64,000 bases of DNA from Panorpa germanica (Eukaryota > Arthropoda > Insecta > Mecoptera > Panorpidae), in contig OY783206.1 in assembly GCA_963678705.1 (NCBI GenBank), positions 27,477,807-27,541,806 on the forward strand, given 5' to 3'. The notes under the pieces were generated by a model that saw only the letters and a list, made by a program, of their open reading frames with translations, did no database searches and had not been told where the DNA came from. Below are positions 1,710 to 36,778 of this stretch, one piece after another. The position numbers were made by a program, and so were the translations under genes. Positions within the stretch are counted from its first letter, which is position 1; every line of letters begins with the position of its first letter.

Positions 1710-2210
1710 TTAGGTCTGTCTAGTAGCTTCTTCTCCAGTTTTCTGTTGTTTCAAGCAAGAACAATCCCTGAGATGGCCCTCCTCGTTCTCCAACATTAAC
1801 TTCACATGAGCGTGAACGACTGACGCTACTTTCTCTAGAGTTTGTTCGTATAGACAATTTAAATCTGTTTTAATTAGGTCAACAATATTGCGCATGAATG
1901 TGATGGTGTAACTTTTTTTCCGATCAAATGATTGTATGTCGTCAGAATTTAGTTTTTTAACTGCCAAACGAATTTTTTTAAACATGTGGTTATTCAGGGC
2001 CATATACTGTTTCAACAAACGCTTATCTTGTCCTGGATGTTTGTACTTCGAGCGGAAGACAACATCATAGAGATCTCTAAATTCGTCCACATTTTGAGAT
2101 GTTATGTATCGGTCTGCGGGATCCTCATTTAACAACTTTAACAATACCGAACTAGCCACAAGGACAGCGAACATATAATTAACATCGATGTATTCTAGTG
2201 TCGGCATAAT
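1710..2210 (-). CDS. Array gene A, terminal exon (C-terminal region)
   Basis: This exon has 166 codons plus TAA. It is preceded on the minus strand by TTGTTTTGCAG, a good 3' splice site, and starts in phase 0 with ATT ATG CCG. The partner donor is AAG|GTAAAT at 2854/2853, giving a 643-nt intron. The encoded segment has no family I recognise. It begins with a variable, hydrophobic stretch, then a block beginning DPADRYITSQNVDEF that is the same in all four complete copies, a variable helical middle, and a conserved end rich in His, Glu and Cys. Because gene A is frameshifted upstream, this exon is probably translated only if that lesion is bypassed. Confidence 0.7.
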   Translation of the reverse strand: MMPTLEYIDVNYMFAVLVASSVLLKLLNEDPADRYITSQNVDEFRDLYDVVFRSKYKHPGQDKRLLKQYMALNNHMFKKIRLAVKKLNSDDIQSFDRKKSYTITFMRNIVDLIKTDLNCLYEQTLEKVASVVHAHVKLMLENEEGHLRDCSCLKQQKTGEEATRQT

Positions 2211-2853
2211 CTGCAAAACAATGAATTTTTATGAAGTCAGATCGTGTGGTCAAATTACGAATATAGACGTTTACCTAATTTTTAAATCCTTGTTAAGAAA
2301 AAAGAAAGAGACATTTAAAAATGGCGTTCAAGAAGATGTACGGATGATAACAATTAATAATTTAACCGCAGGTAATAATTTAAAGAAAATCAAAAAAATG
2401 AAATATTAAGAAACCAGTGTCGGTTGGGTTTAATAAATACATGGTAGGCGCCGATCGTGCAAATCAATATCTTTCATCACAAAGCGTGATTCTATTTTAA
2501 GTTTAAATAACTGTACGGATGCAGTTTGCTTTGCCAGAGAATTATTTATTGTGAACTACACTCAAATGCACTAAAATTATTTTCCTGATCAATTGAATTG
2601 TTCCACAATGTAAAACAGCGTGACGTTTTTGATTGTGGTTACACAATAATGAGGCTTAACGAGACAATGATTGGACGCGATGGATAATGGGACACTTTTC
2701 AGTGAATTTCTTCCACTTGTGTGGCAAATGACTCAGAGCACCATCTGACGTCATGAAATATAAACCTCTACAGACTGCATTTTAAATAACACGGCATTAG
2801 TACGGAGACATTGAAAATGTTTAATTTTCGAATCATCAGCCGCATATATTTAC
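2211..2853 (-). other. Intron of gene A
   Basis: The donor AAG|GTAAATA and acceptor TTTTGCAG are conserved in place in genes A to D. The intron holds a short plus-strand open frame (2188-2409) that recurs in every copy; see findings. No other feature is seen. Confidence 0.65.
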
Positions 2854-5800
2854 CTTATTTATCAAGTGCATATAATGTACTCCATGTATCGTTAAGTCGT
2901 TTGGCGGAAGATAACTGCCTATTGAATCAATAGCATAAAATAATAACCATAATTCTATATGGTTATCATCGGCGTAGTGGTGGGGGAAGTAACCGTCATT
3001 ATCCGGCGTATATTCAAATTTTCTTTCAAATTTCGCAAAGTCCTCTCCAAATATTTCATCACACGAACTAGCTGCAGCCACGTGTAGGATGCTGCGTCCC
3101 TTGGAGTCAGGTCCAAATCTAAGTGAATTGAAATCGCTGTTTCTTTCAAGGTATTTCCGTAATTCTTTTCTTTGCACAGCATTGTGTAACGGTAGGCCCC
3201 GTGCGACGTAATCCTCTTCCATTATGTCTGCCCTTAGACAGTCTTCTTTCATAAAGCTACCATAAACCTGTTTAAGCAGATTGAATACTTTATTACGACG
3301 TGTAATCAATTGATGGGGGTACACGCCTAACTTGTTGTCTCTGCTGTACTCAGCTCTGTGATTTGCCAGGAGTTTTATCGCATCTTTATCTCTCATGAAA
3401 GCTGCAACGTGTAAAGGCGTGAGGCCTAATTCATCTTTTGAATTCAGATTTTCTTCTTTAAAATGAATAATATCTTCTTTGCATTGACTTATAACCGCCA
3501 CATGAAAAGGTGAGTTCCTGGAATACTTCAATAAAAAGTAACGCGCGTAGTCGTCTATGTTAGAATCTAATAACAATAAACCAAGTAGGGGGCCATACCG
3601 AGGATATTTCTTCAAGTTAGAAGCCAACCACCAAAGCACTAGTTTCGCACTGATTATCGAGGTTATTTCTAGCCTATATAAGTCCAAGTCTGCAACATTT
3701 TCCACCGTTAAGTTATATCCGTTGAACAAAATATATTTTGAAGCTTTGTAATTATTAACTAGATTCGCATAGTGCAGTACGTCTCTTCCTATCGGGTCTA
3801 GCTCGTTGAATTTGTCAATATACTTCCCTAGCGAATTATTTAACTCATCTTCCTCCTCTGTATTTAATATCAGACTAAATAGTGAATTTGTGTTATTTAT
3901 AATTGACGACATGAAATAGTCCACTTCTGTGGGGAAGCTATAGCGTGAATTTCCAGGATGGTCAACGTATTCCTTATATCTATCCCTATTTCTTGCGAAC
4001 CAGTGTCCGCAGAAATATTCGGCAAAAGATTGGTGAATAAAGATCGGTTTATCATCCTTGATTTTGCTAACAAGACCCAAATATTCAATTCCTTCGGATA
4101 AAGAATCGAGGACATCTTTACACTCTGCTTTTATATTCCATTTCGATTCAGACATTCTGTCCTTGCCAAATATAACCCACACTGCAATTATTTCAAAGTT
4201 CTTCATCGTCTTTTCTTTGTTCTTTTTCATTTCAATTCTTGTTGCTGGTGCACTAGTGTTAACTTTATTCTTTTCGTAATATACTTGGAATTTGAGCTCA
4301 ATGAATTTGTCGTATAGATCAACTTTGCTTTTAATGGCATCTACTGAATGTTTAAAATTTCTGCCATTTATGATATCTCCAATCATTTTGCAAAATAAAG
4401 GAATGACACAAAGTTTTTCTTCAGTTTCACCTAGATTACAAAACTTTTCTCCGCAATACTTATTTAGAAATTGTTTAGCTTCATTCAAAGAAAACTCAGC
4501 CAAAGTCCAAAATGCTTGGTCAAAATATTTGTTCATCTGGTCGTTTAAAATAGTTCTTGTTGACACCCAGAGCTGCACGTGAAACTCAGCACGGATGGCC
4601 TGTATAATGAGACAAACTGTTTCGAAATAATACGGATTGATTTCGTCCATGCCATCCAAGAAGATCACCATATTGTTATCGCCTTCTAGACAGTACCTAA
4701 ACATATCGTAGTCCACCGTACCTGTCTTTACACCAGCTAATTCCTGCAAGAAATCTTCCGCCAACTTTTTCTTATCAGTGGTGGCCAAAGTATTTGGTTG
4801 GTCAGTGACTTGATTCAGATAATCGGTGTGACTCAGTAGATTTTCTCTGATGACGTATTTCAATGGGTTCGAGTTCTTTATCTGAAACGCAGTTTGAGTA
4901 AAGAACTCGCTCTTTCCCATTCCTGGTGGGGCGCTTAGGATTATAAATTGTTGATCTAAAATATTGGTATCCACAATATCGTTCTCCACTTTTCTTTCTA
5001 TGTAATATTCTACCGGGGGTGCTAAAGTTTTTCCTACACTCACCAAGCTGCCCTTTTCTTGGCAAATGTGTTTGATTATTAACTTTCTGCACAGCTCAGG
5101 ATTTGTCCTTTGTCTTTGCATGTCATTGAGTCTCACCTTAAATCTCTGAAAGTTGATGGTCACATTGAACAACACCCCAGAGTGCCGACTCAGCCACATG
5201 GAGTTGTTCTCTGTGATGAACCTCACGCATCTTCGGGAGAGATATTTTCGCAATTTCCATAATTCTTTAATGTATTTTCTAGATTCTTTTTTAACAATGT
5301 TGTATCATTTTGGTTGGAGAAGAAGACCACCTTTTTAATGAACTCACTGATTTCTGCTTTCGTGGCGTAGAACGGTTTGTTGTAATCCTGTATTTTCTTC
5401 CAGAGGGTTTCGTTTTTCTCTTCCCCGTTGAACGTAAACACCGTGGATGGGCTCTCCGTCTCCAAGATTCTGCGGCAGAAGGAGTTAGCTTCAAAGGTGT
5501 CTTCGTCAAACTCAAAACTGGCGTTGGTGTACATAACCAGGGTGACTTCTTGCTCCAAACATTCATCGAGGACGGGATCATTGAATTTCTTTATCAATCC
5601 TTGTATCTCTTTGTATCCTTCGAAATATTTTTGCAGCTTGTATGGTCCTTTTCCTTTTCCTGCGACATCCTGCCACGTGATGTTCTTAGTAGTTGTCTCC
5701 TTGTGTTTCAGCTGCACGCAGATCAACTCTCTGAGAATGTCGTCTGCCCCAGGAGTCTTCCGCTTGACTTTAATGATGACGTCGTCGAAGGCACCCATGC

Positions 5801-5999
5801 CATCCACATTGTCCGTGATGTAGAACTCCTGGACGTCTTCCTCTTCAAGGAGCTTCAGCAGCACCCACAGCAGCATGTACTTCTCGTAATCGAAGCCCTT
5901 GTTGTCGGTGCCGGTCCTCTTCTTGACTTGGAGACCGTTTGAAACATCTTTGGAGACCGCGCTGTCCAGGGGTCTCTTGGTGATCGAGTGTCCGTCCAT
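2854..5999 (-). pseudogene. Array gene A: nuclease-like/NACHT/ankyrin protein, type I, frameshifted
   Basis: The likely start is MDGHSITKRP at 5999. The type I N-terminus is a PD-(D/E)XK-like fold candidate (FDYEKY, GAFDD, CVQLKH). The NACHT domain follows, with Walker A APPGMGKS, Walker B VIFLDGMDE and a sensor STRT, then HQSFAEYF and ankyrin-like repeats with LHVAA and LHNAV cores. Compared with gene D, 13 nt are missing at 5226/5227, where D has them at 33711-33723. The N-terminal frame (5999-5223) therefore ends shortly after, and NACHT-ankyrin continues in another frame (5253 leftward). The rest of the frame is open to the splice donor, which suggests a recent lesion or an assembly error. 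The domain calls come from motifs; the defence or sensor role is inferred. Confidence 0.8.
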
Positions 6000-7035
6000 G
6001 AGATAGAATAATGTTAACCCAAGTATGCTTAAGGTTGTACACCAGTGACAACCGTTGGCAAAAGTATAGTTGTATAGCAAGTGTGTTCAAAGCACTGAGT
6101 TTAGCTGAATATAAATGATATAAAATTATAAAAGTAAACAATTAAAATAAGTTCTCCATTTACACAACGCGAAGTAAGAAACAGAGACTCACCTGAACGT
6201 TGGCCTCGTCTGTTAAATTGTCTTTGGTTCGTCACGTGACCAAGTGGAGCTTCTTATCAACTAGAGATGATAACAAGTACTGCAAAATTAGATAACGGGG
6301 GCGGTCCGTAAACTGCTGGAAACACACAAACTGTCAAATTGATAGTTTAGCTATTACGTCAGGCCCACAGAATGGCCTGTTGTCGTTTCTTGCCACCCAG
6401 CCGCTGCCAATAAACCTAATTGACTTTATGATTAAATCTAATTTAAACACACGTATTTATAAATGCACAAATTGTTTCCAGTGCTAATGAGTTGAAATAA
6501 ACTCACCTGGTTACTAAGGTTCATGAATCACTTTTCTCGGTTCACTTTACTTTATCACTTATTAGTAAGCAAATGGATTTCACAATGAGGCGTTTGCAAA
6601 ATTATAGACCCGTATATAAGGGCCTGTTATTTAGATATCTGGATAAGAAATTGATAAGTTCCATGATAATTAATTAATTTTAGCTGATAACACGTCTGTT
6701 ATTGCAAAACAAATTCATCACGTCTAATTGTTCGCACTCGAAGTATCAGCGCATGTTCCAGTGGCGTAACTAGGCAGAAAGTTAGAAAGTTGAAATTTTA
6801 TAGAAAGACTAACTTTGGTACCTAATTTACAAACCGAAAACAAAATTCACCTATTTTGAGTTGGTCAAATAATGTACAAATTTTGAAAATTAAAATAATT
6901 AAGAAAATTTGAAATTAAATTACGAATTATTTTATTGAAATCAAATCTTACACATTAAAAAGACGTCGCTTTACGACGGGGGTAACCTCTGGTGTGTTGA
7001 TAAAGTTGGGTACCAGAATGTTCTATTATTTCGAT
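6000..7035 (-). promoter_or_regulatory. 5' region of gene A: non-coding exon, splice sites, GATA-rich upstream DNA
   Basis: On the minus strand a strong donor, TTCAG|GTGAGTCTC, ends an upstream exon at 6193. An acceptor ATATTCAG at 6105 opens the exon that carries the start codon. A second donor-like site, CCAG|GTGAGTTT, lies near 6508 and may mark an alternative first exon. Around 6630-6700 there are several GATAA motifs close together (GGATAAG, TGATAAG, TGATAAT, TGATAAC), with more near 6255-6295. The same layout recurs upstream of gene D (34612-35220). No TATA box was assigned. Confidence 0.5.
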
Positions 7036-7904: not shown

Positions 7905-8405
7905 TTAGGTCTGTCTAGTAGCTTCTCCTCCAGTTTTCAGTTGTTTCAAGCAAGAACAATCCCTGAGATGGCCCTCCTCGTTCTCCAACATTAACTTCAT
8001 ATGAGCGTGAACGACTGACGCTACTTTCTCTAGAGTTTGTCCGTATAGACTATTTAAATCTGTTTTAGATAGATGAACAATATTGTTAATGAATGTTTCC
8101 ATGTAACTTTCTATCCTAATGAATGATCGTCTGGCGTCAGTATTTAGTTTTTTAACTGCCAAACGATATTTTCTACGCATGTGGTTGGTCAGGGCCTTAT
8201 ACTGCTTCAACAAACGCTTATCTTGTCCTGGATGTTTGTACTTTGAGCGGAAGACAACATCATAGAGATCTCTAAATTCGTCCACATTTTGAGATGTTAT
8301 GTATCGGTCTGCGGGATCCTCATTTACCAACTTTAACCATACCGAACTAGTCACAAGGAAAGTGAACATAGAATTAGCATCGATGTCTTCTAGTGTCGGA
8401 AAACT
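7905..8405 (-). CDS. Array gene B, terminal exon
   Basis: The exon follows TTGTTTTGCAG and starts in phase 0 (AGT TTT CCG). It is the same length as in A, C and D (501 nt with stop). The start of the exon and its middle differ from the other copies mainly by amino-acid changes, while the DPADRYITSQNVDEF block is unchanged. The matching donor is at 9050/9049. Because gene B has an upstream stop codon, this exon is not expected in a full-length product. Confidence 0.7.
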   Translation of the reverse strand, partial: SFPTLEDIDANSMFTFLVTSSVWLKLVNEDPADRYITSQNVDEFRDLYDVVFRSKYKHPGQDKRLLKQYKALTNHMRRKYRLAVKKLNTDARRSFIRIESYMETFINNIVHLSKTDLNSLYGQTLEKVASVVHAHMKLMLENEEGHLRDCSCLKQLKTGGEATRQT

Positions 8406-9049
8406 CTGCAAAACAATTAATTTTTATGAAGTCAGATCGTGCGGTCAAATTACGAAAATAGACGTTTACCTAATTCTTAAATCCTTGTTAAGAAAAAAGG
8501 AAAAGAAATTTAAAAATGGCGTTCAAGAAGATGTACGGATGATAACAATTAATAATTTAACCGCAGGTAATAATTTAAATAAAATCAAAAAAATTAAATA
8601 TTAAGAAACCAGTGTCGGTTGGGTTTAATAAATACATGGAAGGCGCCGATCGTGCAAATCAATATCTTTCATCACAAAGCGTGATTCTATTTTTAAATTC
8701 AAACAGCTGTACGGATGCAGTTTGCTTTGCCAGAGAATTATTCATTGTGAACTACACTCAAATACACTGAAATTGTTTTCCTGATCAATTGAATTGTTCC
8801 ACAATGTAAAACAGCGTGACGTTTTTGATTGTGGTTACACAATAATGAGGCTTAACGAGACAATGATTGGACGCGATGGATAATGGGACACTTTTCAGTG
8901 AATTTCTTCCACTTGTGTGGCAAATGACTCAGAGCACCATCTGACGTCATGAAATATAAACCTCTATAGACTGCATTGTAAATAACACGGCATTAGTACG
9001 GAGACGTTGAAAATGTTTAATTTTCGAATCATCAGCCGCATATATTTAC

Positions 9050-12000
9050 CTTATTCATCATGTCTGTATAATGTACTCCATGTATCGTTAAGTCCTCTGG
9101 TGCAAGATAACTGCATATGGTACCAATAGCATAAGATATTAACCATTCTTCTATATAGATATCATCGGCGTAGTGGTAGGGGAAGTAACCGTTATTATCC
9201 GTCGTATATTTAAATTTTCTTTTAATTTTCGCAAAGTCTACGCCAAGTATTGCATCACACGAACTAGCTGCAGCCACGTGTAGGACGCTGCGTCCCTTGA
9301 AGTCAGGTCCAAATCTAAATGAATTGAAATCGCTGTTTCTTTTAAGGTATTTCCGCAATTCTTTTCTTTGCACAGCATTGTGTAACGGTAGGCCCCGTGC
9401 GACGTAATCCTCTGCCATTATGTCTGCCCTTAGACAGTCTTCTTTCATAAAGCTACCATAAAACTGTTTAAGCAGATTGTATATTTCTTTCTCATAACAT
9501 CGAATCAATTGATGGGGGTACACGCCTAACTTGTTGTCTCTGCTGTACTCAGCTCTGTGATTTGCCAGGAGTTTTATCGCATCTGCATCTCTCATGAAAG
9601 CTGCAACGTGTAAAGGCGTTAGGCCTAAGTCATTTTCTGAATTTATGTTTTCCTTTTCAAGATTTATAATTTCTTCTTTACAACGATTTAAAATCGCCAC
9701 ATGAAAAGGTGAGTTCCTGGAATGCTCCAATAAAAAATAAGGTGCGGTGTCCTCTATTATAGAATATAATAACAATACACCAAGTAGGGGGCCATACCGA
9801 GGATATTTCTTCAAGTTGAATTCCAACCATCTAAGTATTAGTGTCGCACTGATTATCGAGGTTATATCTGGCCTATATAAGTCGAAGTCTGAAACATTTT
9901 CCTCCGTCAAGTTATATCCGTTGAACAAAACATATTTTGAAACTTTGTAATTATTAACTAGATTCGCATAGTGTAGTACGTCTCTTCCTATCGGGTCTAG
10001 CTCGTTGAATTTGTCAATATACTTCCCTAGCGAATTATTTAACTCATCTTCCTCCTCTGTATTTAATATCAGACTAAATAGTGAATTTGTGTTATTTATA
10101 ATTGACGACATGAAATAGTCCACTTCTGTGGGGAAGCTATAGCGTGAATTTCCAGGATGGTCAACGCATTCCTTATATCTCTCTCTATTTCTTGCGAATT
10201 AGTGTCCGCAGAAATATTCGGCAAAAGATTGGTGAATAAAGATCGGTTTATCATCCTTGATTTTGCTAACAAGACCCAAATTTTCAATTCCTACGGATAA
10301 AGAATCGAGGACATCTTTACACTGTGCTTTTATATTCCATTTCGATTCAGACATTCTGTCCTTGCCAAATATCACCCACACTGCAATTATTTCAAAGTTC
10401 TTCATCGTCTTTTCTTTGTTCTTTTTCATTTCAATTCTTGTTGCTGGTGCACTGGTGTTAACTTTATTCTTTTCGTAATATACTTGGAATTTGACTTCAA
10501 TGAATTTGTCGTATAGATCAACTTTGCTTTTAATGGCATCTACTGAATGTTTTAAATTACTGCCATTTATGATATCTCCTATCATTTTGCAAAATAAAGG
10601 AATGACACAAAGTTTTTCTTCAGTTTCACCTAGATTACAAAACTTTTCTCCGCAATACTTATTTAGAAATTGTTTAGCTTCATCCAAAGAAAACTCAGCC
10701 AAAGTCCAAAATTCCTGTTCACAATATTTCTTCATCTGGTCGTTTAAAATAGTTCTTGTTGACACCCAGAGCTGCACGTGAAACTCAGCACGGATGGCCT
10801 GTATAATGAGACAAACTGTTTCGAAATAGTACGGATTGATTTCGTCCATGCCATCCAAGAAGATCACCATATTGTTATCGCCTTCAAGACAGGATCTAAA
10901 CATATCGTAGTCCACTGTACCTGTCTTTACACCAGCTAATTCCTGCAAGAAATTTTCCGCCAACTTCTTATTACCAGTGGTGGCCAAAGTATTTGTTTGT
11001 TCAGTGACTTGATCTAGATATTCGGTGTGACTCAGTAGATTTTCTCTGATGACGTATTTCAATGGGTTCGAGTTCTTTATCTGAAATGCAGTTTGAGTAA
11101 AGAACTCGCTCTTTCCCATTCCTGGTGGGGCGCTTAGGATTATAAATTCCTGATCTAAAATATTGGTATCCACAATATCGTTCTCCACTTTTCTTTCTAT
11201 GTAATATTCTACCGGGGGTGCTAAAGTTTTTCCTACACTCACCAAGCTGCCCTTTTCTTGGCAAATGTGTTTGATTATTAGCTTTCTGCACAGCTCAGGA
11301 TTTGTCCTTTGCCTTTGCATGTCATTCAACTTCACCTGAAATCCCTGAAAGTTGATGGTTACGTTGAACAACACCCCAGAGTCTTGACTCATCCACATAT
11401 CATTGTTTTCGGTAATAAAGTTAACAGCTCTTTGTGACATATATTCCAGGGGAACATCTTCTTCAACGAAATAGTTTCCAAGTTTCTCTATAAGAGTTTT
11501 ATGTAGATCAGCGGTGGTACTTTGGTTTGAAAAGAACAGGAGCTGTTGCAAAAACAGCTGTCCTTCCACATCTTTAGTTATCGGGCTATTATTTCTTTTT
11601 AGTTCATCGTGAATTTGTTCAAACCGATCTGTTGAATTGAAACTAAATACGTTTGATGCGTTTCCTCCAGTTTCCAGCAGTTTCCGGCACAGAGAATCCT
11701 TTGGACAGTTGTTGTCCCCCAAGTTGCACACGGTGTTTGTATAAATGATGAATGTCATGTCCTCTATCTGACATTTGTTCAGAACAGCATCTTGAAACGT
11801 TCCAATTTTATTCATTACAGATTTGAAGTCGCTGTAATACTTCGTTAAATTGAAATGCCCACCACCGAAAGCTGCTGTCAGCGAAGCCAACGTTACAGAT
11901 CTGCTCTTCATATGCTTCAGTTGGACCAAGAATAGTCTAGTTAGAGGTTTGTCTTCCAGAAGAGGTTTGTACTCGACCAAGAAGACTAAATCGTCGAAGG

Positions 12001-12181
12001 CCCCTACTTCTTCCACATTCTGGGCGATATAGAATCGCTTAATGTGGTCGTCTTCCAGTATCCTTATTAAAGTTAAAAGGAACATGAAGTTCTCATAATT
12101 GACGCCTGTATTTGTGGCGGCGCCACCTCTCCTGTTTACACGAATGCCGTGGCTGTCGGAATGATCTAATTTTTGGTCCAT
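9050..12181 (-). pseudogene. Array gene B: nuclease-like/NACHT/ankyrin protein, type II, premature stop
   Basis: The start MDQKLDHSDS at 12181 follows an acceptor TTTTACAG|GG at 12200/12199; an in-frame upstream extension to 12274 crosses that acceptor and is probably not translated. The type II nuclease-like N-terminus has YENF, GAFDD and VQLKH. NACHT motifs GMGKS and FLDGMDE are intact. At 10201-10199 the Trp codon found in A, C and D in ...YFCGHW... is TAA, and the frame then continues open to the donor at 9050. The product as written would be about 660 residues: nuclease-like plus NACHT without the ankyrin part. This could be a dead copy or a truncated variant. Confidence 0.8.
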
Positions 12182-14388
12182 GTTCTGGGAAGACGCGCCC
12201 TGTAAAATATGAAACAGTTTTTTAATTTTCTTTACAATTCTTAAAAGATAACCATATGTTTCTAGAACCACCAAATTCTAAGATAACAACCATTATTTTA
12301 ATGTTCCTTGTATTCTAATAAACTATTCGACATTCAACTAGGGAACATAATTCTGGGATTCGGGAGCGTACCTGTCTTGTGGTCCCGATAATCCGGGTGT
12401 CGATAAACCCAGAGTCCCGGGATTTTCAGGATTATTTGAAAAGTGAAGATTTAAGTATTTAAATCAAAACAATAATCTTTTAGATTATTCGAATCCATCC
12501 CACTATACAATTCAAAAGCAAACCTGCAATTGTTATGTTTCCACAAACAAAGACTTTTATAATTGTTGAAGAAATCACTTTGCGTCAACAAACAAAATGT
12601 GTGACCATTTAGTATTATTTTGTGCAGATGCATTGACGACATTTTGAATGACAGTTGTACAAATCACAGATTTCTGTGTCAAATTAATTCTGTCGGACTA
12701 ATGTATGAAATGAAAACTTCAATAAAATAATAAAATACCTTAGGGCAGACTGAAACAATAATTGAGCAAAGGGTTGGGGCCCGTTGTCTGTGATAGGCCG
12801 TACGCGAATAACGAATATCTTGACGAACACTTGAAGGGTTACTGTTATAGGATATTAATTGAGCTGCTTTTTATTTTAATTATATTAATTAAAAAGAGTA
12901 ATCATAATTATGCGTTTAATTAACATTCTAAATGCTACAATCAATCGAATGACCTGATAAGAAACGCGAATGATAAGATAAAGACTCAAATTTATTTAGC
13001 TGTCAAATAACGTTTCAACTTCTTTGAAATGTTTAAGACATGTGACGTCACACGTCTTTCAAAACACGTTTACCAATCAAATTACCAATAATTGAAATTT
13101 AATTATTTCACGAAAATAAAAGGGAAGGGTATTTTAAAAGGAACAAAGAAATTTATATGAATTTATAGAAGATAGGGGCCCGATACTTAACACTTAGGGC
13201 TAATAACAACTTCAGGACACTAATAAGTTGAACTAAACACACCTGGTTACTTTTAAAGTGCACTGTCTTTTGTTTAACTTTCACAAATCACTTTTCTCAG
13301 TTCACTTTACTTTTTCACTTATTCCGACGTCGTGTAAATTATCCTTCGGACGTCAGTTGTCAGGTTATTTATTAGGTAATATTTTTGAGAATTGAGGGAA
13401 TGGTTTTCACAATGCCATTATCGCGGGGCCTATTTAGATATCTCAATACGAAATAGATAAGTTCGAAGCAAATCAATTCATGTATACAGTAGCATATATT
13501 TACGGTAAAAGATCCAAGCACAAAACTAGTTCACATTCTAATTAACTAATTCTGCGTGTCAAAAATTATTGATGTTATTATTAATGATGTTTGTTTGTAT
13601 AGTGTTCTGTTTTACCGACCACAGTCATTTACAGAACTACACAAGCAGCAAAACAAAACCAACACACTAACCACTTCTCTGTTATCACTGTTTATATTGT
13701 TATCTGCGCTTAATATTAATGTAATCGCAATATTTATTTGTTATTAACAATTAGAATTAGTGCAGAGGCTTTGCAATGGCCAACAACCACGTCAAACTAA
13801 AGTTAAAGTTGTATCGATGTGTCAACGATGTCCGCTGAGCCCGCAGCGATAGGGAATACCGGGAATACAATGAATCACTTGGGCCGTTCCATGTCAAATT
13901 GAAAGAATCCCAGAGATTCGTACTGATAAAGTTAAAACTTCCACTATTAGAAACCAATATTTATAAATTAAAAACACTATGTTATATTCTAACCTCCAAA
14001 ATGTGACAATCTGTCAAAATGCAGGAGGATTTATTTTTAAAAGAAGTTCAATGTCAGTTTGTCAAAAATAAAGAAGTAAAAACAATTTCTATTACTAATT
14101 GTTATTAAAAACAGCAATTTTAATTATTCCACATTCAATTTTGTCCAACTGTCGAACTGTCAAAATTTATATTGCTAACGACGCATGCGCACCAACTATT
14201 CTTTTATATTTATTTGCCTTGACTTTTATTCGTCATAGCCACCATCAATTAAATCAACTAAACTTAAATTAAAACACGAATGTGACAAGGAATGCCTATT
14301 CGGCAAACTCAAATCTAGTTTAAAATATGAAATAAAAACGTAAATTAAATATTAAAACAGTGAGTGGGAATTCCATGTGTTACATAAT
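12182..14388 (-). promoter_or_regulatory. Upstream region of type II gene B
   Basis: The 3' splice site at 12200 shows that at least one 5' exon lies upstream. Donor candidates on the minus strand are ACAG|GTACGC near 12370, AAG|GTATTT near 12740 and CCAG|GTGTGT near 13240; the last sits at the place of CCAG|GTGAGT in type I genes. The stretch is nearly the same as 25811-27946 in front of gene C. A GGGAATTCC (NF-kB/Rel-like) site at 14366-14374 is noted without proof. No other gene is supported here. Confidence 0.4.
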
Positions 14389-14832: not shown

Positions 14833-15005
14833 GCAGTGCGTCCTAGGCATTCTTTGAGAATGGTACATACACACACACGCGCAGCCAACCAGCAACAGTG
14901 TGTGTGATTATAAGTGAGATTATGTGTGGATGTGTGTGTTTTGTTAATACTCAGTTCTTATCATAAGCAAATTCTAAGAAGCGAGCGAACCACACTGGAG
15001 CTATC

Positions 15006-15039
<34 letters not shown>

Positions 15040-21525: not shown

Positions 21526-22026
21526 TTAGGTCTGTCTGGTAGCTTCTCCTCCAGGTTTCAGTTGTTTCAAGCAAGAACAGTCCCTGAGATGGCCCTCCTC
21601 GTTCTCCGACATTAACTTCACATGAGCGTGAACGACTGACGCTACTTTCTCTAGAGTTTGTTCGTATAGACAATTTAAATCTGTTTTAAATAGGTCAACA
21701 ATATTGCGCATGAATGTGATGATGTAATTTTCTGTCCTAATGAGTGATCGTCTGACGTCAATATTTTGTTTTTCAACTGCCAAATGATATTTTCTACGCA
21801 TGTGGTTGTTCAGGGCCATATAATGTTTCAACAAACGCTTATCTTGTCCTGGATGTTTGTACTTCGAGCGGAACACAACATCATAGAGATCTCTAAATTC
21901 GTCCACATTTTGAGATGTTATGTATCGGTCTGCGGGATCCTCATTTACCAACTTTAACCATACCGAATTACGCAGAAGGAGAGTGAACATAGTAATAGCA
22001 TCGATGTCTCCTAGTATCGGAAAAAT
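21526..22026 (-). CDS. Array gene C, terminal exon
   Basis: This is the second coding exon of the intact copy: 166 codons and TAA. The acceptor TTGTTTTGCAG lies directly upstream, and the phase-0 join to the donor AGG|GTAAAT at 22664/22663 keeps the frame. The exon replaces a short read-through tail (VNICG and stop) that would follow the large exon if the intron were retained. It contains the invariant DPADRYITSQNVDEF block and variable flanking segments. No known domain was recognised; a ligand-binding or oligomer-stabilising role is possible but not shown. Confidence 0.8.
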   Translation of the reverse strand: MFPILGDIDAITMFTLLLRNSVWLKLVNEDPADRYITSQNVDEFRDLYDVVFRSKYKHPGQDKRLLKHYMALNNHMRRKYHLAVEKQNIDVRRSLIRTENYIITFMRNIVDLFKTDLNCLYEQTLEKVASVVHAHVKLMSENEEGHLRDCSCLKQLKPGGEATRQT

Positions 22027-22663
22027 CTGCAAAACAATGAATTTTTATGAAGTCAGATCGTGCGGTCAAATTACGAAAATAGACGTTTACCTAATTTTTA
22101 AATCCTTGTTAAGAAAAAAGAAATTTAAAAATGGCGTTCAAGAAGATGTACGGATGATAACAATTAATAATTTAACCGCAGGTAATAATTTAAATAAAAT
22201 AAAAAAAATGAAATATTAAGAAACCAGTGTCGGTTGGGTTTAATAAATACATGGTAGGCGCCGATCGTGCAAATCAATATCTTTCATCACAAAGCGTGAT
22301 TCTATTTTAAATTTAAATAACTGTACGGATGCAGTTTGATTTGCCAGAGAATTATTTATTGTGAACTAGACTTAAATGCACTAAAATTATTTTCCTGATC
22401 AATTGAATTGTTCCACAATGTAAAACAGCGTGACGTTTTTGATTGTGGTTACACAATAATGAGGCTTTACGAGACAATGATTGGACGCGATGGATAATGG
22501 GACACTTTTCAGTGAATTTCTTCCACTTGTGTGGCAAATGACTCGAAGCACCATCTGACGCCATGAAATATAAACCTCTATAGACTGCATTGTAAATAAC
22601 ACGGCATTAGTACGGAGACTTTGAAAATGTTTAATTTTCGAATCATCAGCCGCATATATTTAC

Positions 22664-25600
22664 CCTATCTATCATGTCCATATAATCCACTCCATGTATC
22701 GTTAAGTCCTTTGACGGAAGATAACTGCATATGGTACCAATAGCATAATATATTAACCAATATTCTATATTGATATCATCGGCGTAGTGGTGGGGGAAGT
22801 AACCGTCATTATCCGGCGTATATTTAAAATTTCTTTCAATTTTCACAAAGTCCTCTCCAAATATTTCATCACACGAACTAGCTGCAGCCACGTGTAGGAC
22901 GCTGCGTCCCTTGTAGTCAGGTTCAAATCTAAGTGAATTGAGATCGCTGTTTCTTTCAAGGTATTTCCGCAATTCTTTTCTTTGCACAGCATTGTGTAAC
23001 GGTAGGCCCCGTGCGACGTAATCCTCTGCCATTATGTCTGCATTTAGACAGTCTTCTTTTATAAAGCTACCATAAAACTGTTTAAGCAGATTGTAAACTT
23101 CTTCATTACGTCGAATCAATTGATGGGGATACACGCCCAACTTGTTATCTCTGCTGTACTCAGCTCTGTGATTTGCCAGGAGTTTTATCGCATCTTCGTC
23201 TCTCATGTAAGCTGCAACGTGTAAAGGCGTTAGGCCTAAGTCATTTTTTGAATTTAGGTTTTCTTTGTTAAGATTTATAATATCTTCTTTACATTGATAT
23301 AAAATCGCCACATGTAAAGGTGAGTTCCTGGAATGCTCCAATAAAAAATAGGGTGCATAGTTCAATATTTTAGAATTTAATAACAATAAACCAAGTAGGG
23401 GGCCATGCCGAGCATTTTTCTTCAAGTTAGAAGCCAACCACCTAAGCACTAGTTTCGCACTGATTATCGAGGTTATTTCTGGCCTATATAAGTCCCAGTC
23501 TGCAACATTTTCCACCGTCAAGTTATATCCGTTGAACAAAATATATTTTGAAGCTTTGTAATTATTAACTACATTCGCATAGTGCAGTACGTCCCTTCCT
23601 ATCGGATCTAGCTCGTTGAATTTGTCAGTATATTTCCCAAGCGAATTCTCCAACTCATCTTCCCCCTCTGTATTTAATATCAGACTAAATAGTGATTTTG
23701 TGTTATTTATCATTGACGACATGAAATAGTCCACTTCTGTGGGGAAGCTATAGCGTGAATTTCCAGGATGGTCAACGTATTCCTTATATCTCTCTCTATT
23801 TCTTGCGAACCAGTGTCCGCAGAAATATTCGGCAAAAGATTTGTGAATAAAGATCGGTTTATCATACTTGATTTTGCTAACAACTCCCAAATATTCAATT
23901 CCTTCGGATAAAGAATCGAGGACATCTTTACACTGTGCTTTTATATTCCATTTCGATTCAGACATTCTGTCCTTGCCAAATATCACCCACACTGCAATTA
24001 TTTCAAAGTTCTTCATCGTCTTTTCTTTGTTCTTTTTCATTTCAATTCTTGTTGCTGGTGCACTAGTGTTAACTTTATTCTTTTCGTAATATACTTGGAA
24101 TTTGACTTCAATGAATTTGTCGTATAGATCAACTTTGCTTTTAATGGCATCTACTGAATGTTTCAAATTACTGCCATTTATGATATCTCCTATCAATTTG
24201 CAAAATAAAGGAATGACACAAAGTTTTTCTTCAGTTACACCTAAATTACAAAACTTTTCTCCGCAATACTTATTTAGAAATTGTTTAGCTTCATCCAAAG
24301 TAAACTCAGCCAAAGTCCAAAATTCCTGTTCAAAATATTTCTTCATCTGGTCGTTTAAAATAGTTCTTGTTGACACCCAGAGCTGCACGTGAAACTCAGC
24401 ACGGATGGCCTGTATAATGAGACAAACTGTTTCGAAATAGTACGGATTGATTTCGTCCATGCCATCGAAGAAGATCACCATATTGTTATCGCCTTCAAGA
24501 CAGGACCTAAACATATCGTAGTCCACCGTACCTGTCTTTACACCAGCTAATTCCTGCAAGAAAATTTCCGCCAACTTTTTCTTATCAGTGGTGGCCAAAG
24601 TATTTCTTTGTTCAGTGACTTTATCTAGATATTCGGTGTGACTCAGTAGATTTTCTCTGATGACGTATTTCAATGGGTTCGAGTTCTTTATCTGAAATGC
24701 AGTTTGAGTAAAGAACTCGCTCTTTCCCAGTCCTGGTGGGGCGCTTAGGATTATAAATTCCTGATCTAAAATATTGGTATCCACAATATCGTTCTCCACT
24801 TTTCTTTCTAAGTAATATTCTACCGGGGGTGCTATAGTTTTTCCTACACTCACCAAGCTGCCCTTTTCTTGGCAAATGTGTTTGATTATTAGCTTTCTGC
24901 ACAGCTGATGATTTGTCCTTTGCCTTTGCATGTCATTCAACTTCACCTGAAATCCCTGAAAGTTGATGGTTACGTTGAACAACACCCCAGAGTCTTGACT
25001 CATCCACATATCATTGTTTTCGGTAATAAAGTTAACAGCTCTTTGTGACATATATTCCAGGGGAACATCTTCTTCAACGAAATAGTTTTTGAGTTCTTCT
25101 GTAAGAGTTTTATGTAGATCAGCGGTGGTACTTTGGTTTGAAAAGAACAGGAGCTGCTGCAAAAACAGCTGTCCTTCCAAATCTTTAGTTATCGGGCTAT
25201 TATTTCTTTTTAGTTCATCGTGAAATTTTTCAAACCGATCTGTTGATTTGAAACCGAACACGTTCGATGCGTTTCCTCCAGTTTCCAGCAGTTTCCGGCA
25301 CAGAGAATCCGCGGGACAGTTGTTGTCCCCCAAGTTGCACACGGTGTTTGTATAAATGATGAATGTCATGTCCTCTATTTGACATTTGTTCAGAACAACA
25401 TCATTAAATGTTCCAATATTATTCATTACAGATTTGAAGCCGTTGTAATACTTCGTTAAATTGAAATGCCCACCACCGGAAGCTGATGTCAGGGAAGCCA
25501 ACGTTACAGATCTGCTCTCCATATGCTTCAGTTGGACCAAGAACAGTCTAGTCAGAGGTTTGTCTTCCAGAACAGGTTTGTACTCGACCAAGAAGACTAA

Positions 25601-25792
25601 ATCGTCGAAGGCCCCTACTTCTTCCACATTCTGGGCGATATAGAATCGCTTAATGTGGTCGTCTTCCAGTATCCTTATTAAAGTTAAAAGGAACATGAAG
25701 TTCTCATAATTGACGCCTGTATTTGTGGCGGCGCCACCTCTCCTGTTTACACGAATGCCGTGGCTGTCGGAATGATCTAATTTTTGGTCCAT
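22664..25792 (-). CDS. Array gene C: intact nuclease-like/NACHT/ankyrin protein, type II
   Basis: This is the only copy without a visible lesion: 1043 codons here plus 166 in the terminal exon, about 1209 residues. The start chosen is MDQKLDHSDS at 25792, just inside the acceptor TTTTACAG at 25811. Residues 25-150 form a PD-(D/E)XK-like nuclease candidate (Glu30, Asp63/Asp64, Gln87-Leu-Lys89). NACHT lies at about 340-660: Walker A GLGKS (354-358), Walker B with Asp443/Asp446/Glu447, sensor STRT near 475, then HKSFAEYF near 650. Ankyrin-like repeats run from about 730 to 1010 (LHYAN, SPLHVA, TPLHVAA, LPLHNAV, SVLHVAA). There is no signal peptide or membrane segment, so it is probably cytosolic. 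An NTP-driven sensor with a nuclease effector is inferred from STAND proteins. Confidence 0.85.
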
Positions 25793-28389: not shown

Positions 28390-28733
28390 GCTGTGCGTCC
28401 TAGGCATTCTTTGAGAATGGTACATACACACACGCGCAGCCAACCAGCAACAGTGCGTGTGTGAGATTATGTGTGGATGTGTGTGTTTTGTTAATACTCA
28501 GTTCTTATCATAAGCAAATTCTAAGAAGCGAGCGAACCACACTGGAGCTATCCATGTGTGTGTGTGTGTGTGTGAAGGAGGAAAACTTGACTGTAATTCT
28601 GGTATCGCAACACCACACAAAGATTAGCTAGAAATAAATGTTGCAGAGTTATTATTTCAGCTGGAACAAAGTTTGTATTATAAGCTAAATGTAAATGGAG
28701 ACATCTACAGAGGGTTGTACATTTTTGTACAAT
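28390..28733. repeat. Spacer with short (TG)n tract
   Basis: The TG tract at 28555-28574 is shorter than in the gene B unit. Otherwise it matches 14833-15197. No gene. Confidence 0.65.
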
Positions 28734-29366
28734 GGGCTTGTGTCCTCATTGTTTAGTGGTCGATTTTTCAATTGTTGATTGAAATTGATGTTAATAAATG
28801 TGTATTGGCGTGTCTATTTTATTAAATATCTAAATGTTGACGGAGATGTAGCAATTAAAAGTTTGAATTGTAGTTTTAGCGCAAGAAATAGTCGGCCATA
28901 TTTGTATGACGTGAAATGCATTTTAACGTCGGTTATTTGTTGAGTAGGTCAGTGCTGTAGTAATGTTTTGTAGCTGTTGGTAGTCAAATAATCAAGTCAA
29001 GTCACAGAATAATAAGTTTTTACTTTATTTAACCCTGCTAAGGCAGACATAATATTGAAATTTGATTGTTCCTTGAAATAGCTGTAAATAATATTTGATA
29101 TTTTGATATATAAATACATATAGGAGAGATTTATGAGCTGTAAGGTTGGTAACCTTACACAAGGATTGTGATGTCACATGCACTTGGAATGTGTACAACG
29201 TTGAATCCCTTTAATAATTAAAGAGACAAAATGACTTTTTTAATTGTTAATATCTCCTAACATATAAGGAGTTATTAACAAATAGTTGGACATTTGAGGT
29301 TCTAGTAACCCACTTTATCAATATATAGTACACTTTTATAGAAATTAAGACATAGGACACAAGCCC
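28734..29366. mobile_element. MITE with 13-bp inverted ends and AT flanks, second array copy
   Basis: The ends are GGGCTTGTGTCCT and AGGACACAAGCCC, flanked by AT. It is in the same position in the unit as 15198-15829. Confidence 0.75.
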
Positions 29367-29439
29367 ATTATAAAGCATATCATTATCTAACTATCATGAA
29401 AATTTGAACCATGAACCCCACAATATGGACTGTTAACTT

Positions 29440-30470: not shown

Positions 30471-30971
30471 TTAGGTCTGTCTAGTAGCTTCTTCTCCAGT
30501 TTTCTGTTGTTTCAAGCAAGAACAGTCCCTGAGATGGCCCTCCTCGTTCTCCAACATTAACTTCACATGAGCGTGAACGACTGACGATAATTTCTCTAGA
30601 GTTTGTTCGTATAGACAATTTAAATCTGTTTTAAATAGGTCAACAATATTGCGCAAGTATGTGTCGATGTAACTTTGTTTCCTAAAGAATGATCGTCTGG
30701 CGTCAGTATTTAGTTTTCTTAATGCCAAACGATATTTTCTACGCATGTGGTTGTTCAGGGCCACGTACTGCTTCAACAAACGCTTATCTTGTCCTGGATG
30801 TTTGTACTTCGAGCGGAACACAACATCATAGAGATCTCTAAATTCGTCCACATTTTGAGATGTTATGTATCGGTCTGCGGGATCCTCATTTAACAACTTT
30901 AACAATACCGAATTCTGCAGAAGGAGAATGAACATAGAATTAGCATTGTTGTGTCCTAGTGTCGGCTGAAT
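30471..30971 (-). CDS. Array gene D, terminal exon (probably not translated in frame)
   Basis: An intact 501-nt exon with acceptor TTTTGCAG, same design as in A to C. In gene D the large exon now ends in a stop codon 8 nt before the donor, so this exon would be 3'UTR unless the upstream frame is corrected. Its own frame is open, which argues that the upstream change is recent. Confidence 0.6.
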   Translation of the reverse strand: MQPTLGHNNANSMFILLLQNSVLLKLLNEDPADRYITSQNVDEFRDLYDVVFRSKYKHPGQDKRLLKQYVALNNHMRRKYRLALRKLNTDARRSFFRKQSYIDTYLRNIVDLFKTDLNCLYEQTLEKLSSVVHAHVKLMLENEEGHLRDCSCLKQQKTGEEATRQT

Positions 30972-31616
30972 CTGCAAAACAATGAATTTTTATGAAGTCA
31001 GATCGTGCGGTCAAATTACGAAAATAGACGTTTACCTAGTTCTTAAATCCTTGTTAAGAAAAAAGAAATTTAAAAATGGCGTTCAAGAAGATGTACGGAT
31101 GATAACAATTAATAATTTAACCGCAGGTAATAATTTAAATAAAATTAAAAAAATGAAATATTAAGAAACCAGTGTCGGTTGGGTTTAATAAATACATGGT
31201 AGGCGCCGATCGTGCAAATCAATATCTTTCATCACAAAGCGTGATTCTATTTTAAATTTAAATAACTGTACGGATGCAGTTTGCTTTGCCAGAGAATTAT
31301 TCATTGTGAACTACACTCAAATACACTGAAATTATTTTCCTGATCAATTGAATTGTTCCACAATGTAAAACAGCGTGACGTTTCTGATTGTGGTTACACA
31401 ATAATGAGGCTTTACGAGACAATGATTGGACGCGATGGATAATGGGACACTTTTCAGTGAATTTCTTCCACTTGTGTGGCAAATGACTCGGAGCACCATC
31501 TGACGTCATGAAATATAAACCTCTATAGACTGCATTTTATATAACACGGCATTAGTACGGAGACATTGAAAATGTTTAATTTTCGAATCATCAGCCGCAT
31601 ATATTTACCTTATTTA

Positions 31617-34496
31617 TCATGTCTGTATAATATACTGAATAATATAATATAATCCATGTATCGTTAAGTCCTCTGGTGCAAGATAATTGCATATTGAACC
31701 AATAGCATAAGATGTTAACCAGAATTCTATATAGATATCATCGGCGTAGTGGTGGGAGAAGTAACCGTTATTATCCGGCGTATATTTAAATTTTCTTTCA
31801 ATTTTCGTAAAGTCTCCACGTATTTCATCACACGAACTAGCTGCAGCCACGTGTAGGACGCTGCGTCCCTTGTAGTCATCTCTCATGAAAGCTGCAACGT
31901 GTAAAGGCGTTAGGCCTAATTCATCTTTTGAATTCAGATTTTCTCCTTCAAAATGAATAATATCTTCTTTGCATTGACTTATAATCGCCACATGTAAAGG
32001 TGAGTTCCTGGAATACTCCAATAAAAAATAAGGCGCAAAGTTCCGTATAATTATTAACAATAAACCAAACAAGGGGCCATACCGAGGATATTTCTTCAAG
32101 TTGGATTCCAACCATCTAAGCGCTAGTTTCGCACTGATTATCGAGGTTATTTCTGGCCTATACAAGTCCAACTCTGCAACATTTTCCACCGTCAAGTTAT
32201 ATCCGTGGAACAAAATTAATTTTAAAGCTTTGTAATTATTAACTAGATTCGCATAGTGCAGTACATCCCTTCCTATCGGGTCTAGCTCGTTGAATTTGTC
32301 AATATACTTCTCTAGCGAATTCTTTAACTCATCTTCCTCCTCTGTATTTAATATCAGACTAAATAGTGAATTTTTGTTATTTATCATTGACGACATGAAA
32401 TAGTCCACTTCTGCGGGGAAGCTATAACGTGAATTTCCAGGATGGTCAACGTATTCTTTATATCTCTCCGTATTTCGTGCGAACCATCGTCCGCAGAAAT
32501 ATTCGGCAAAAGATTGGTGAATAAAGATCGGTTTATCATCCTTGATTTTGCTAACAATGCCCAAATATTCAATTCCTTCGGATAAAGAATCGAGGACATC
32601 TTTACACTGTGCTTTTATATTCCATTTCGATTCAGACATTCTGTCCTTGCCAAATATCACCCACACTGCGACTATTTCAAAGTTCTTCATCGTCTTTTCT
32701 TTGTTCTTTTTCATTTCGATTCTTGTTGCTGGTGCACTAGTGTTAACTTTATTCTTTTCGTAATATACTTGGAATTTATCTTCAATGAATTTGTCGTATA
32801 GATCAACTTTGCTTTTAATGGCATCTACTGAATGTTTCAAATTACTGCCATTTTTGATATCTCCAATCATTTTGCAAAATAAAGGAATGACACAAAGTTT
32901 TTCTTCAGTTTCACCTAGATTACAAAACTTTTCTCCGCAATACTTATTTAGAAATTGTTTAGCTTCATCCAAAGTAAACACAGCCAAAGTCCAAAATTCC
33001 TGTTCAAAATATTTTTTCATCTGGTCGTTTAAAATAGTTCTTGTTGACACCCAGAGCTGCACGTGAAACTCAGCACGGATGGCCTGTATAATGAGACAAA
33101 CTGTTTCGAAATAATCCGGATTGATTTCGTCCATGCCATCCAAGAAGATCACCATATTGTTATCGCCTTCAAGACAGGACCTAAACATATCGTAGTCCAC
33201 CGTACCTGTCTTTACACCAGCTAATTCCTGCAAGAAATTTTCCGCCAACTTTTTCTTATCAGTGGTGGCCGAAGTATTTCTTTGTTCAGTGACTTGATCT
33301 AGATATTGGGTGTGACTCAGTAAATTTTCTCTGATGACGTATTTCAATGGGTTCGAGTTCTTTATCTGAAACGCAGTTTGAGTAAAGAACTTGCTCTTTC
33401 CCATTCCTGGTGGGGCGCTTAGGATTATAAATTGTTGATCTAAAATATTGGTATCCACAATATCGTTCTCCACTTTTCTTTCTATGTAATATTCTACCGG
33501 AAGTGCTATAGTTTTTCCTACACTCACCAAGCTGCCCTTTTCTTGGCAAATGTGTTTTATTATTATCTTTCTGCACAGCTCAGGATTTGTCCTTTGTCTT
33601 TGCATGTCATTCAACTTCACCTGAAATCCCTGAAAGTTGATGGTCACGTTGAACAACACCCCAGAGTGCCGACTCAGCCACATGGAGTTGTTCTCTGTGA
33701 TGAACCTCACGGCCCTCTGCAACGCATCTTCGGGTGAGATATTTTCGCAAGTTTTATAATTCTTTAATGTATTTTCTAGATTCTTTTTTAACAATGTGGT
33801 ATCATTTTGGTTGGAGAAGAAGACCACCTTTTTAATGAACTCACTGATCTCTGCTTTCTTGGCGTAGAACGGTTTGTTGATATCCTGTATTTTCTTCCAG
33901 AGGGTTTCGTTTTTCTCTTCCCCGTTGAACGTAAACACCGTGGATGGGCTCTCCGTCTCCAAGATTCTGCGGCAGAAGGAGTTAGCGTCAAAGGTGTCTT
34001 CGTCAAACTCAAAACTAGCGTTGATGTACATAACTAGGGTGACTTCCTGTTCCAAACATTCATCCAGGACGGGATCATTGAATTTCTTTATCAATCCTTG
34101 TATCTCTTTGTATCCTTCGAAATATTTCTGCAGCTTGTATGGTCCTTTTCCTTTTCCTGCGACATCCTGCCACGCGATCTTCTTAGTAGTTGTCTCCTTG
34201 TGTTTCAGCTGCACGCAGATCAACTCTCTGACAATGTCGCCTCCCCCAGGAGCCTTCCGCTTGACTTTGATGATGACGTCGTCGAAGGCACCCATGCCAT
34301 CCACATTGTCCGTGATGTAGAACTCCTGGACGTCTTCCTCTTCAAGGAGCTTCAGCAGCACCCACAGCAGCATGTACTTCTCGTAATCGAAGCCCTTGTT
34401 GTCGGTGCCGGTCCTCTTCTTGACTTGGACGCCGTTTGAAACATCTTTGGAGACCGCGCTGTCCAGGGGTCTCTTGGTGATCGAGTCTTCGTCCAT
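31617..34496 (-). CDS. Array gene D: nuclease-like/NACHT/shortened ankyrin protein, type I
   Basis: A continuous frame of 959 codons from MDEDSITKRP, the first ATG after the acceptor at 34612. The type I nuclease-like N-terminus has Glu39, Asp72/Asp73 and Gln96-Leu-Lys98. NACHT has GMGKS (364-368) and FLDGMDE, followed by HQSFAEYF. Compared with gene C, an in-frame loss of about 279 nt (junction near 31878) removes about 93 residues from the ankyrin region, joining LHVAAFMRD directly to DYKGRSVLHVAA. A 17-nt insertion at 31636-31652 shifts the frame and gives a stop at 31619-31617, just before donor AAG|GTAAAT (31609/31608). The product may still be made, lacking the C-terminal exon. Function is inferred only. 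Confidence 0.8.
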   Translation of the reverse strand: MDEDSITKRPLDSAVSKDVSNGVQVKKRTGTDNKGFDYEKYMLLWVLLKLLEEEDVQEFYITDNVDGMGAFDDVIIKVKRKAPGGGDIVRELICVQLKHKETTTKKIAWQDVAGKGKGPYKLQKYFEGYKEIQGLIKKFNDPVLDECLEQEVTLVMYINASFEFDEDTFDANSFCRRILETESPSTVFTFNGEEKNETLWKKIQDINKPFYAKKAEISEFIKKVVFFSNQNDTTLLKKNLENTLKNYKTCENISPEDALQRAVRFITENNSMWLSRHSGVLFNVTINFQGFQVKLNDMQRQRTNPELCRKIIIKHICQEKGSLVSVGKTIALPVEYYIERKVENDIVDTNILDQQFIILSAPPGMGKSKFFTQTAFQIKNSNPLKYVIRENLLSHTQYLDQVTEQRNTSATTDKKKLAENFLQELAGVKTGTVDYDMFRSCLEGDNNMVIFLDGMDEINPDYFETVCLIIQAIRAEFHVQLWVSTRTILNDQMKKYFEQEFWTLAVFTLDEAKQFLNKYCGEKFCNLGETEEKLCVIPLFCKMIGDIKNGSNLKHSVDAIKSKVDLYDKFIEDKFQVYYEKNKVNTSAPATRIEMKKNKEKTMKNFEIVAVWVIFGKDRMSESKWNIKAQCKDVLDSLSEGIEYLGIVSKIKDDKPIFIHQSFAEYFCGRWFARNTERYKEYVDHPGNSRYSFPAEVDYFMSSMINNKNSLFSLILNTEEEDELKNSLEKYIDKFNELDPIGRDVLHYANLVNNYKALKLILFHGYNLTVENVAELDLYRPEITSIISAKLALRWLESNLKKYPRYGPLFGLLLIIIRNFAPYFLLEYSRNSPLHVAIISQCKEDIIHFEGENLNSKDELGLTPLHVAAFMRDDYKGRSVLHVAAASSCDEIRGDFTKIERKFKYTPDNNGYFSHHYADDIYIEFWLTSYAIGSICNYLAPEDLTIHGLYYIIQYIIQT

Positions 34497-36051: not shown

Positions 36052-36387
36052 TCTTAATATATATAAATTACGTGTCACGTTGTCTCTCCGCGATGGACTC
36101 CTAAACTACTTAACCGATTTTAATCAAATTTGTACACCGTGTGCAGTTTGATCCAACTTGAAAGATAGGATAGCTTACATCTCAATTTATTTATCTTATT
36201 GCAAATTATTTGTCTATTAATTATCTGTATATGACATATGACATCTGGCGACGATGATGGCGACATCTGTTGACTAGATTGAGTAAATATTCTGTTGACT
36301 AGATTGAGTAAATATTCAATAGATGGCGCTATGTAATGTAATATGACAAAAACGTTAGTCACAGCAACGCGTGGCCGGGACAGCTAG
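36052..36387 (+). mobile_element. Non-autonomous Helitron
   Basis: It begins TCTTAATATATATAAATTAC, ends GGGACAGCTAG, and sits between A (36051) and T (36388), as Helitrons do. Other array units show the uninterrupted host sequence at this point (for example about 7555). It contains a 25-bp tandem duplication (TGTTGACTAGATTGAGTAAA core) near 36267-36318. No Rep-helicase is encoded. Confidence 0.7.
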
Positions 36388-36531
36388 TAAAATATAAGTC
36401 CTTTGCTTGCATAATACTTTAAATCTGAAAATAAAAATTAACTTATTATTAGATAAGTACTTAATATTAAGAATTATAGTTATGTTAACTTTGTTAAGTT
36501 TAATTTGATATGTCAGTGTGTCGAACTCAAG

Positions 36532-36778
36532 TTAGGTCTGTCTGGTAGCTTCTCCTCCAGGTTTCAGTTGTTTCAAGCAAGAACAGTCCCTGAGATGGCC
36601 CTCCTCGTTCTCCGACATTAACTTCACATGAGCGTGAACGACTGACGCTAATTTGTCTAGAGTTTGTTCGTATAGACAATTTACATCTGTTTTAAATAGG
36701 TCAACAATATTGCGTATGAATGTGTCGGTATAACAATCTTTCCTAATGAATCTAATGATGAATAGTCTGGCGTCAGCA
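36532..36778 (-). pseudogene. Array unit E: truncated terminal exon
   Basis: It matches the 3' half of the terminal exons of A to D, including the TAA stop at 36534-36532 and the segment encoding the conserved C-terminus. It breaks off near 36778, where unrelated sequence starts. A 3' flank piece (36388-36480) is joined to it with an internal deletion. This marks the promoter-side end of the array. Confidence 0.75.

Follow-up and report, generated by a model that had tools for sequence, protein, structure and literature searches.

Bacterial NLR-like defence proteins are described as carrying an N-terminal effector, a central NTPase and a C-terminal sensor (available part of PMC10286901), and the Cap4 nuclease, whose domain is also used in Lamassu, is thought to be activated by oligomerisation (available part of PMC10586767). 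For arthropods, the available parts of two articles state that Drosophila and various other arthropods are without bona fide NLRs (PMC7308585) and report NLR-annotated sequences and one NACHT-WD40 protein from a termite transcriptome (PMC3712931). The present analysis concerns a stretch of 64,000 nucleotides from the mecopteran Panorpa germanica (GenBank assembly GCA_963678705.1, contig OY783206.1, positions 27,477,807 to 27,541,806 of the forward strand), called the window in what follows. On its minus strand, positions 1710-36789 hold four head-to-tail copies (A-D) and a fragment (E) of a gene that encodes, in order, a nuclease-like head, a NACHT NTPase, ankyrin repeats and, in a second exon, a further nuclease-like domain. 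These genes probably encode STAND immune receptors of an NLR/Avs-like kind, in which a nuclease would serve as the effector and a fast-evolving combination of ankyrins and pseudo-nuclease as the sensor. A search of the open-licence PMC literature for an insect nuclease-NACHT-ankyrin family yielded no paper among the matches listed, as judged by title and start of abstract. Uncharacterised database entries of this architecture may well exist; what is new here is the spliced last exon, predicted to encode a second, degenerate nuclease-like domain in the closest subfamily. Insects are generally regarded as being without immune receptors of this class. If the receptor reading is true, the family would supply insects with an intracellular receptor class so far missing from them, and would provide testable genes for the detection of intracellular viruses, bacteria or symbionts.

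The plan of effector, NTPase and sensor is shared with Avs and bacterial NLR-related STAND proteins, and the insect head appears homologous to Cap4/LmuA domains; the insect family differs in its sensor of ankyrins and pseudo-nuclease (the usual Avs sensor repeats are tetratricopeptide repeats) and in having an intron. The original prediction, made from the letters of the stretch, had likened the array to Avs proteins, and an effector-STAND-repeat sensor plan is indeed present, but the likeness is one of layout and not of membership: no model named Avs was among the matches when whole proteins, 28 heads and 27 NACHT domains were scanned with PADLOC, a collection that presumably contains Avs models. 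With animal NLRs (NLRP3, NOD) the family has in common the NACHT switch, clustered expansion and a variable C-terminus, whereas ankyrins stand in place of leucine-rich repeats (LRRs) and the effector would be an enzyme. The scans made returned no LRR, death-fold, CARD or PYD family, and the genes are therefore not called bona fide NLRs here. Cap4 (of CBASS) and LmuA (of Lamassu) have the same YE/YQ...DD...QxK core as the insect head, a downstream motif and a profile match, but the insect head is fused to NACHT and ankyrins, and its first motif has E where bacteria have Q. Finally, plant NLRs with integrated decoys contain a degenerate, fast-evolving copy of a functional domain inside the receptor, as the insect proteins seem to do; in the latter, where a bait role is putative, the degenerate domain is a copy of the effector head of the same receptor.

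Relatives were sought in the 464-Mb genome to which the window belongs, whose contigs are labelled C1, C2, C3 and so on. The search with copy C gave 60 match rows, grouped by hand into at least 41 loci, of which 31 were read as sequence (the four window copies and 27 others). An unbroken frame of at least 1,000 aa is kept at 28 of the 41, and 22 loci lie within 1.6 Mb of one contig (C3:26.03-27.61 Mb), so that the array is borne out and the family is larger than had been reported. Within the window, the aligned blocks of A-D extend over 1.8-6.6 kb, non-coding sequence included, at 92-95% identity, which identifies the copies as duplications. The nuclease head alone gave 74 match rows, and many of the weaker ones are short, stop-containing relics on C1 and C7. 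Several of these fragments span a nearly identical stretch (83-163), as if borne by a repeat, and two distant relatives of the head lie outside the main family, at C8:9366883-9367539 (27%, frame of 1016 aa) and C7:9700473-9700847 (31%, frame of 597 aa).

The head carries a YE...FDD...QLK pattern, near-invariant in the family, which had been proposed to fit the QxK variant of PD-(D/E)XK nucleases, and this proposal is supported. Of 30 heads, 28 retain E62, 29 D96, all Q119 and 29 K121 (residues of the copy C frame, counted from its start at 25888). The PADLOC LmuA model matches the head of copy A at 1.2e-9 and that of copy D at 1.3e-7, and the heads of loci L031 and L035 match, at about 0.004, PADLOC models named 'Effector, Endonuclease', which we take to be CBASS models. 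Bacterial proteins for comparison were picked with the LmuA model, which found them in two of five genomes and then in 10 of 274; eight of the 13 distinct matched places were used, L118 (motif unclear) and L119, L124, L128 and L129 (stop, fragment or C-terminal part) being left out. Pfam Cap4_nuclease (PF14130) also matches five of the places so picked, L117, L120 and L122 of the set included. Throughout the set of eight, Q, D, Q and K are invariant at the positions of the insect E, D, Q and K. Alignment of the insect head with this set by hhalign, a comparison that is not fully independent because the set was chosen by the LmuA profile, gave a probability of 96.7 (E 3.5e-10, 173 columns) and a score of 74.8, where the best of 60 column shuffles reached 14.65 and the reversed control 15.55. 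By eye, a single frame contains both the Cap4/LmuA-type domain and a P-loop in L121, L125 and L126; in L122 the frame with the P-loop lies next to the domain, beyond a run of N. Read in this way, the layout is the same as that of head and P-loop in the insect family. Sequence comparison thus places the head among the Cap4/LmuA-type PD-(D/E)XK nuclease domains, with its predicted catalytic residues kept. A search of the PDB with the head profile returned nothing relevant (SmhB, E 0.18). No relatives were found in bacterial genomes (pattern search), viral contigs or plasmids, so that a recent origin from bacteria or viruses is unsupported.

It is unlikely that, within the same receptor layout, the head acts as a scaffold or signalling domain and cuts no DNA. 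The head of L034, without E, D and K, and that of L026, with K in place of E, would suit such a role, but the four residues are almost invariant even though the heads are only 29-86% identical to that of copy C, and the C-terminal copy described below illustrates the outcome once catalytic constraint has gone.

The middle part is a predicted NACHT domain, with ankyrins after it. The motifs listed in the original prediction recur across the family: Walker A (GMGKS/GLGKS, in general GxGK[ST]) and Walker B (DGxD[E/Q], one of them DQ) are each present in all 28 rows that have sequence at the respective place, an STR motif in 27 of 27, and the EYF of SFAEYF in 25 of 27, the other two having EYL in one case and a diverged sequence in the other. 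The Walker B form DGxDE is a mark of NACHT. Pfam NACHT is matched at E ≤ 0.01 by 22 of 27 members (best 5.6e-9), the segment from copy C not being among them (whole copy C, at E 0.011, misses the cut-off), and the best solved relative of the family NACHT profile is NLRP3 (E 4.8e-5). The ankyrin cores are likewise corroborated, with significant Pfam ankyrin matches in A, C, D and the C-terminal part of B. When C and D were scanned whole with Pfam, PADLOC and NCBIfam, only ankyrin or weak ATPase matches appeared, and the evidence for head and NACHT comes from domain-wise and family-wise scans. PADLOC matches of the 27 NACHT segments to mad8 (12 members, best 1.6e-5) and Csx3 (8 members) were set aside as shared ATPase features.

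Each of A-D further contains a second exon of 166 aa, after an intron of 637-644 nt, that had gone undescribed. The exon is present at 13 of 16 family loci checked (at L025, L018 and L020 the corresponding donor was not found), the splice donor is in phase in 12 of the 13 copies (ten AAG/GTA, one AGG, one CGG; D is out), and the acceptor AG is there in all 13; on these counts a chance open frame was rejected. The exon measures 150-189 aa in 12 copies, and that of L011 is broken after 90. Searching the genome with exon 2 gave 20 rows, three of them nuclease heads, and the other 17 fall into 15 places: 13 are beside members that were read, one is fragment E and one is a broken copy on C2; the exon was not seen in the flanks read next to more distant family members. 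The peptide F..LQ, found ahead of exon 2, also precedes the start Met in many copies, which makes a 5′ non-coding exon ahead of the family genes likely.

Exon 2 is akin to the head, both by hhalign (probability 98.2 and E 5.7e-14, with a score of 95.8 where shuffled controls reach at most 21.3) and by blastp (2e-11, in a small set of family frames). This kinship rests on comparison within the family, because exon 2 aligned directly with the bacterial set gave no match (hhalign probability 0.05). Its E and Q are lost in 13 of 13 copies and its K in 10 of 13, with D kept in 11 of 13; in the closest subfamily, exon 2 is a predicted degenerate second nuclease-like domain without catalytic residues. 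One tentative idea, rather doubtful at present, is that of an integrated decoy: a dead, self-copied head that would serve as bait for pathogen nuclease inhibitors, the binding of which would trigger the live heads. Equally, the tail might act as a simple binding surface, or it might inhibit the heads. A degenerate nuclease tail leads to a specific prediction, i.e. bait for nuclease inhibitors, and the decoy idea, if true, would make the family an insect STAND system whose bait, copied from its own head, is under diversifying selection.

Exon 2 shows signs of diversifying selection, and NACHT appears conserved. Among A-D, divergence is 8.2-9.8% in exon 2, 2.35-3.3% in the adjoining intron and 4.6-5.6% in the 300 bp downstream, and in each of the six pairs non-synonymous change in exon 2 is higher than the rate of the intron (P 2e-4 to 1e-8). 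The pairwise ratio of non-synonymous to synonymous change (dN/dS) of exon 2 is 1.3-2.3 within A-D and 0.36-1.35 in other pairs. Codon models M0, M1a and M2a were run with our own code, and their values are given without correction for gene conversion, which could inflate such tests. For exon 2, twice the log-likelihood difference (2dl) of M2a over M1a is 29.95 in A-D and 61.8 in eight sequences, with an overall omega of 1.97 (p 0.02) and 1.27 (p 0.10), respectively. In a simulation of A-D under M1a, none of 60 runs reached the observed 2dl, three rose above 5.99 and the maximum was 18.2, so that in the tail the chi-square distribution understates p. For the remaining parts, omega under M0 is 0.34 (NACHT), 0.44 (nuclease), 0.55 (post-NACHT) and 0.72 (ankyrin), and M2a over M1a gives p 0.31 for NACHT, 0.10 for post-NACHT, 0.007 for the nuclease (one site) and 4e-6 for the ankyrins (four sites). 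The selected sites of exon 2 in A-D fall at positions 2-23 and 70-113, with none in 24-69.

Nuclease heads have, by the indication of trees and divergence, been exchanged between copies. Among 19 sequences, the heads of A, D, L012 and L031 form one type and those of B, C and L009-L011 another; unlike the heads, the NACHT of A, D and L012 groups with B and C. In approximately unbiased (AU) tests, made on quick trees for groups already known from the alignments, a single clade of A, D, L012 and L031 is rejected by the NACHT data (p 3e-6) and one of A-D and L009-L012 by the head data (p 2e-4). Synonymous divergence jumps at the border of head and NACHT.

The combination of family expansion with diversifying selection at the sensor end fits an immune reading and lends support to the candidate innate sensor system that had been proposed, the immune function itself being what we infer. 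At rest, NACHT would be closed; a foreign ligand bound by the ankyrins and the C-terminal module would bring about nucleotide exchange and oligomerisation of NACHT, and the clustered nuclease heads would then cut DNA, foreign or self, as the effector of a cell-autonomous immunity. New copies would arise by tandem duplication and exchange of nuclease heads while the sensor end diversifies. NACHT domains are also found outside immunity, and a STAND family of development, signalling or chromatin might have expanded by chance; this is improbable given the recent tandem expansion, the head exchange, the diversifying selection and a head homologous to bacterial defence nucleases.

In addition to the dependence of the bacterial set on the LmuA profile, several results weigh against the immune-receptor reading: (i) the LmuA model matches only three of ten head constructs (A twice, D once), leaves trimmed D, L012 and L031 unmatched, which have the same head type as A and D, found one match (1.4e-4) among 28 heads scanned together and none for whole copies C and D; PF14130 matches none of the 28 heads scanned (nor anything in the insect's own genome or in the controls, the model matching in five of 274 bacterial genomes), and a profile search (A1) of 252 gammaproteobacterial genomes gave three weak, implausible matches, none credible; (ii) an excess of non-synonymous over synonymous change in exon 2 is significant in only one of the six A-D pairs, and synonymous change (4-8%) is likewise above the intron rate, so that the intron may be homogenised or constrained; and (iii) three of the four full window copies are broken (A by a frameshift, B by a stop, D by a deletion and a frame change), as are, or fall below 1,000 aa, 13 of the 41 loci. 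Such broken or short copies, the copy-number expansion, the relic fragments on C1 and C7 and a copia element inserted among the copies could also speak for a selfish or intragenomic-conflict family (e.g. a drive-like toxin or mobile-element control) with no part in pathogen immunity. This is distinctly unlikely, since most loci keep the long frame (28 of 41, as above), selection centres on the sensor end rather than the nuclease, and no transposase or mobility gene is among the listed frames of the repeated unit.

The four and a fraction head-to-tail copies of the original prediction are confirmed on the minus strand (Table 1). As to their state, copies and motifs are as described, with the correction that copy C is the only one in the window with an unbroken exon 1 and an intact splice site. 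In copy A the frame changes near 5223-5304, between the nuclease and NACHT parts; copy B has an in-frame stop (a single TAA) directly after FAEYFCGH, closing its first frame; and copy D has lost about 90 residues of the ankyrin part, the end of its exon 1 being out of the family frame.

Table 1. Coordinates of the gene copies in the window and of the predicted domains of copy C (residues counted as in the text).
Feature	Position	Strand	Details
Copy A	1710..5999	-	Exon 1 frames 5223-6086 and 2836-5304; intron 2211-2853; exon 2 1710-2210; nuclease type I
Copy B	7905..12277	-	Exon 1 10199-12277, then 9032-10198; intron 8406-9049; exon 2 7905-8405; nuclease type II
Copy C, intact	21526..25792	-	Exon 1 22664-25792; intron 22027-22663; exon 2 21526-22026; nuclease type II
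Copy C, putative nuclease domain	25085..25759	-	Frame residues 44-268; E62, D96, Q119, K121
Copy C, predicted NACHT NTPase with EYF motif	23822..24757	-	Frame residues 378-689
Copy C, ankyrin part	22667..23326	-	Frame residues 855-1074
Copy C, exon 2, predicted degenerate second nuclease-like domain, fast evolving	21526..22026	-	
Copy D	30471..34496	-	Exon 1 31617-34496; exon 2 30471-30971; nuclease type I
Fragment E	36532..36789	-	Portion of an exon 2 only

A copia-type element (16483-21068) lies between copies B and C, with a single long gag-pol frame and two long terminal repeats of 206 bp, whose 99.0% identity marks it as a recent insertion. Beside the array, the plus strand at 39834-49381 encodes tandem C2H2 zinc fingers in three frames, with units of 84 nt, and retroelement pieces, partly of Pao type (DUF1759, peptidase A17, reverse transcriptase, RNase H), follow at 51705-56656. 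Copies of an interspersed repeat, at most about 860 bp long and 90-93% identical, are found at 14963-15832, 28510-29369, 44324-45162, 49623-50252 and 62211-62588; two of them are inverted.

Outside the window, another gene of apparent STAND type adjoins L018: an open frame on the plus strand, about 2.4 kb beyond the end of exon 1, whose P-loop is a different one (GMGKTT). The odorant receptor family 7tm_6, which is insect-specific, has 145 matches in the genome and none in 14 control genomes, which supports the insect origin of the DNA, and a dense tandem cluster of odorant-receptor matches is located at C11:10.60-10.86 Mb.

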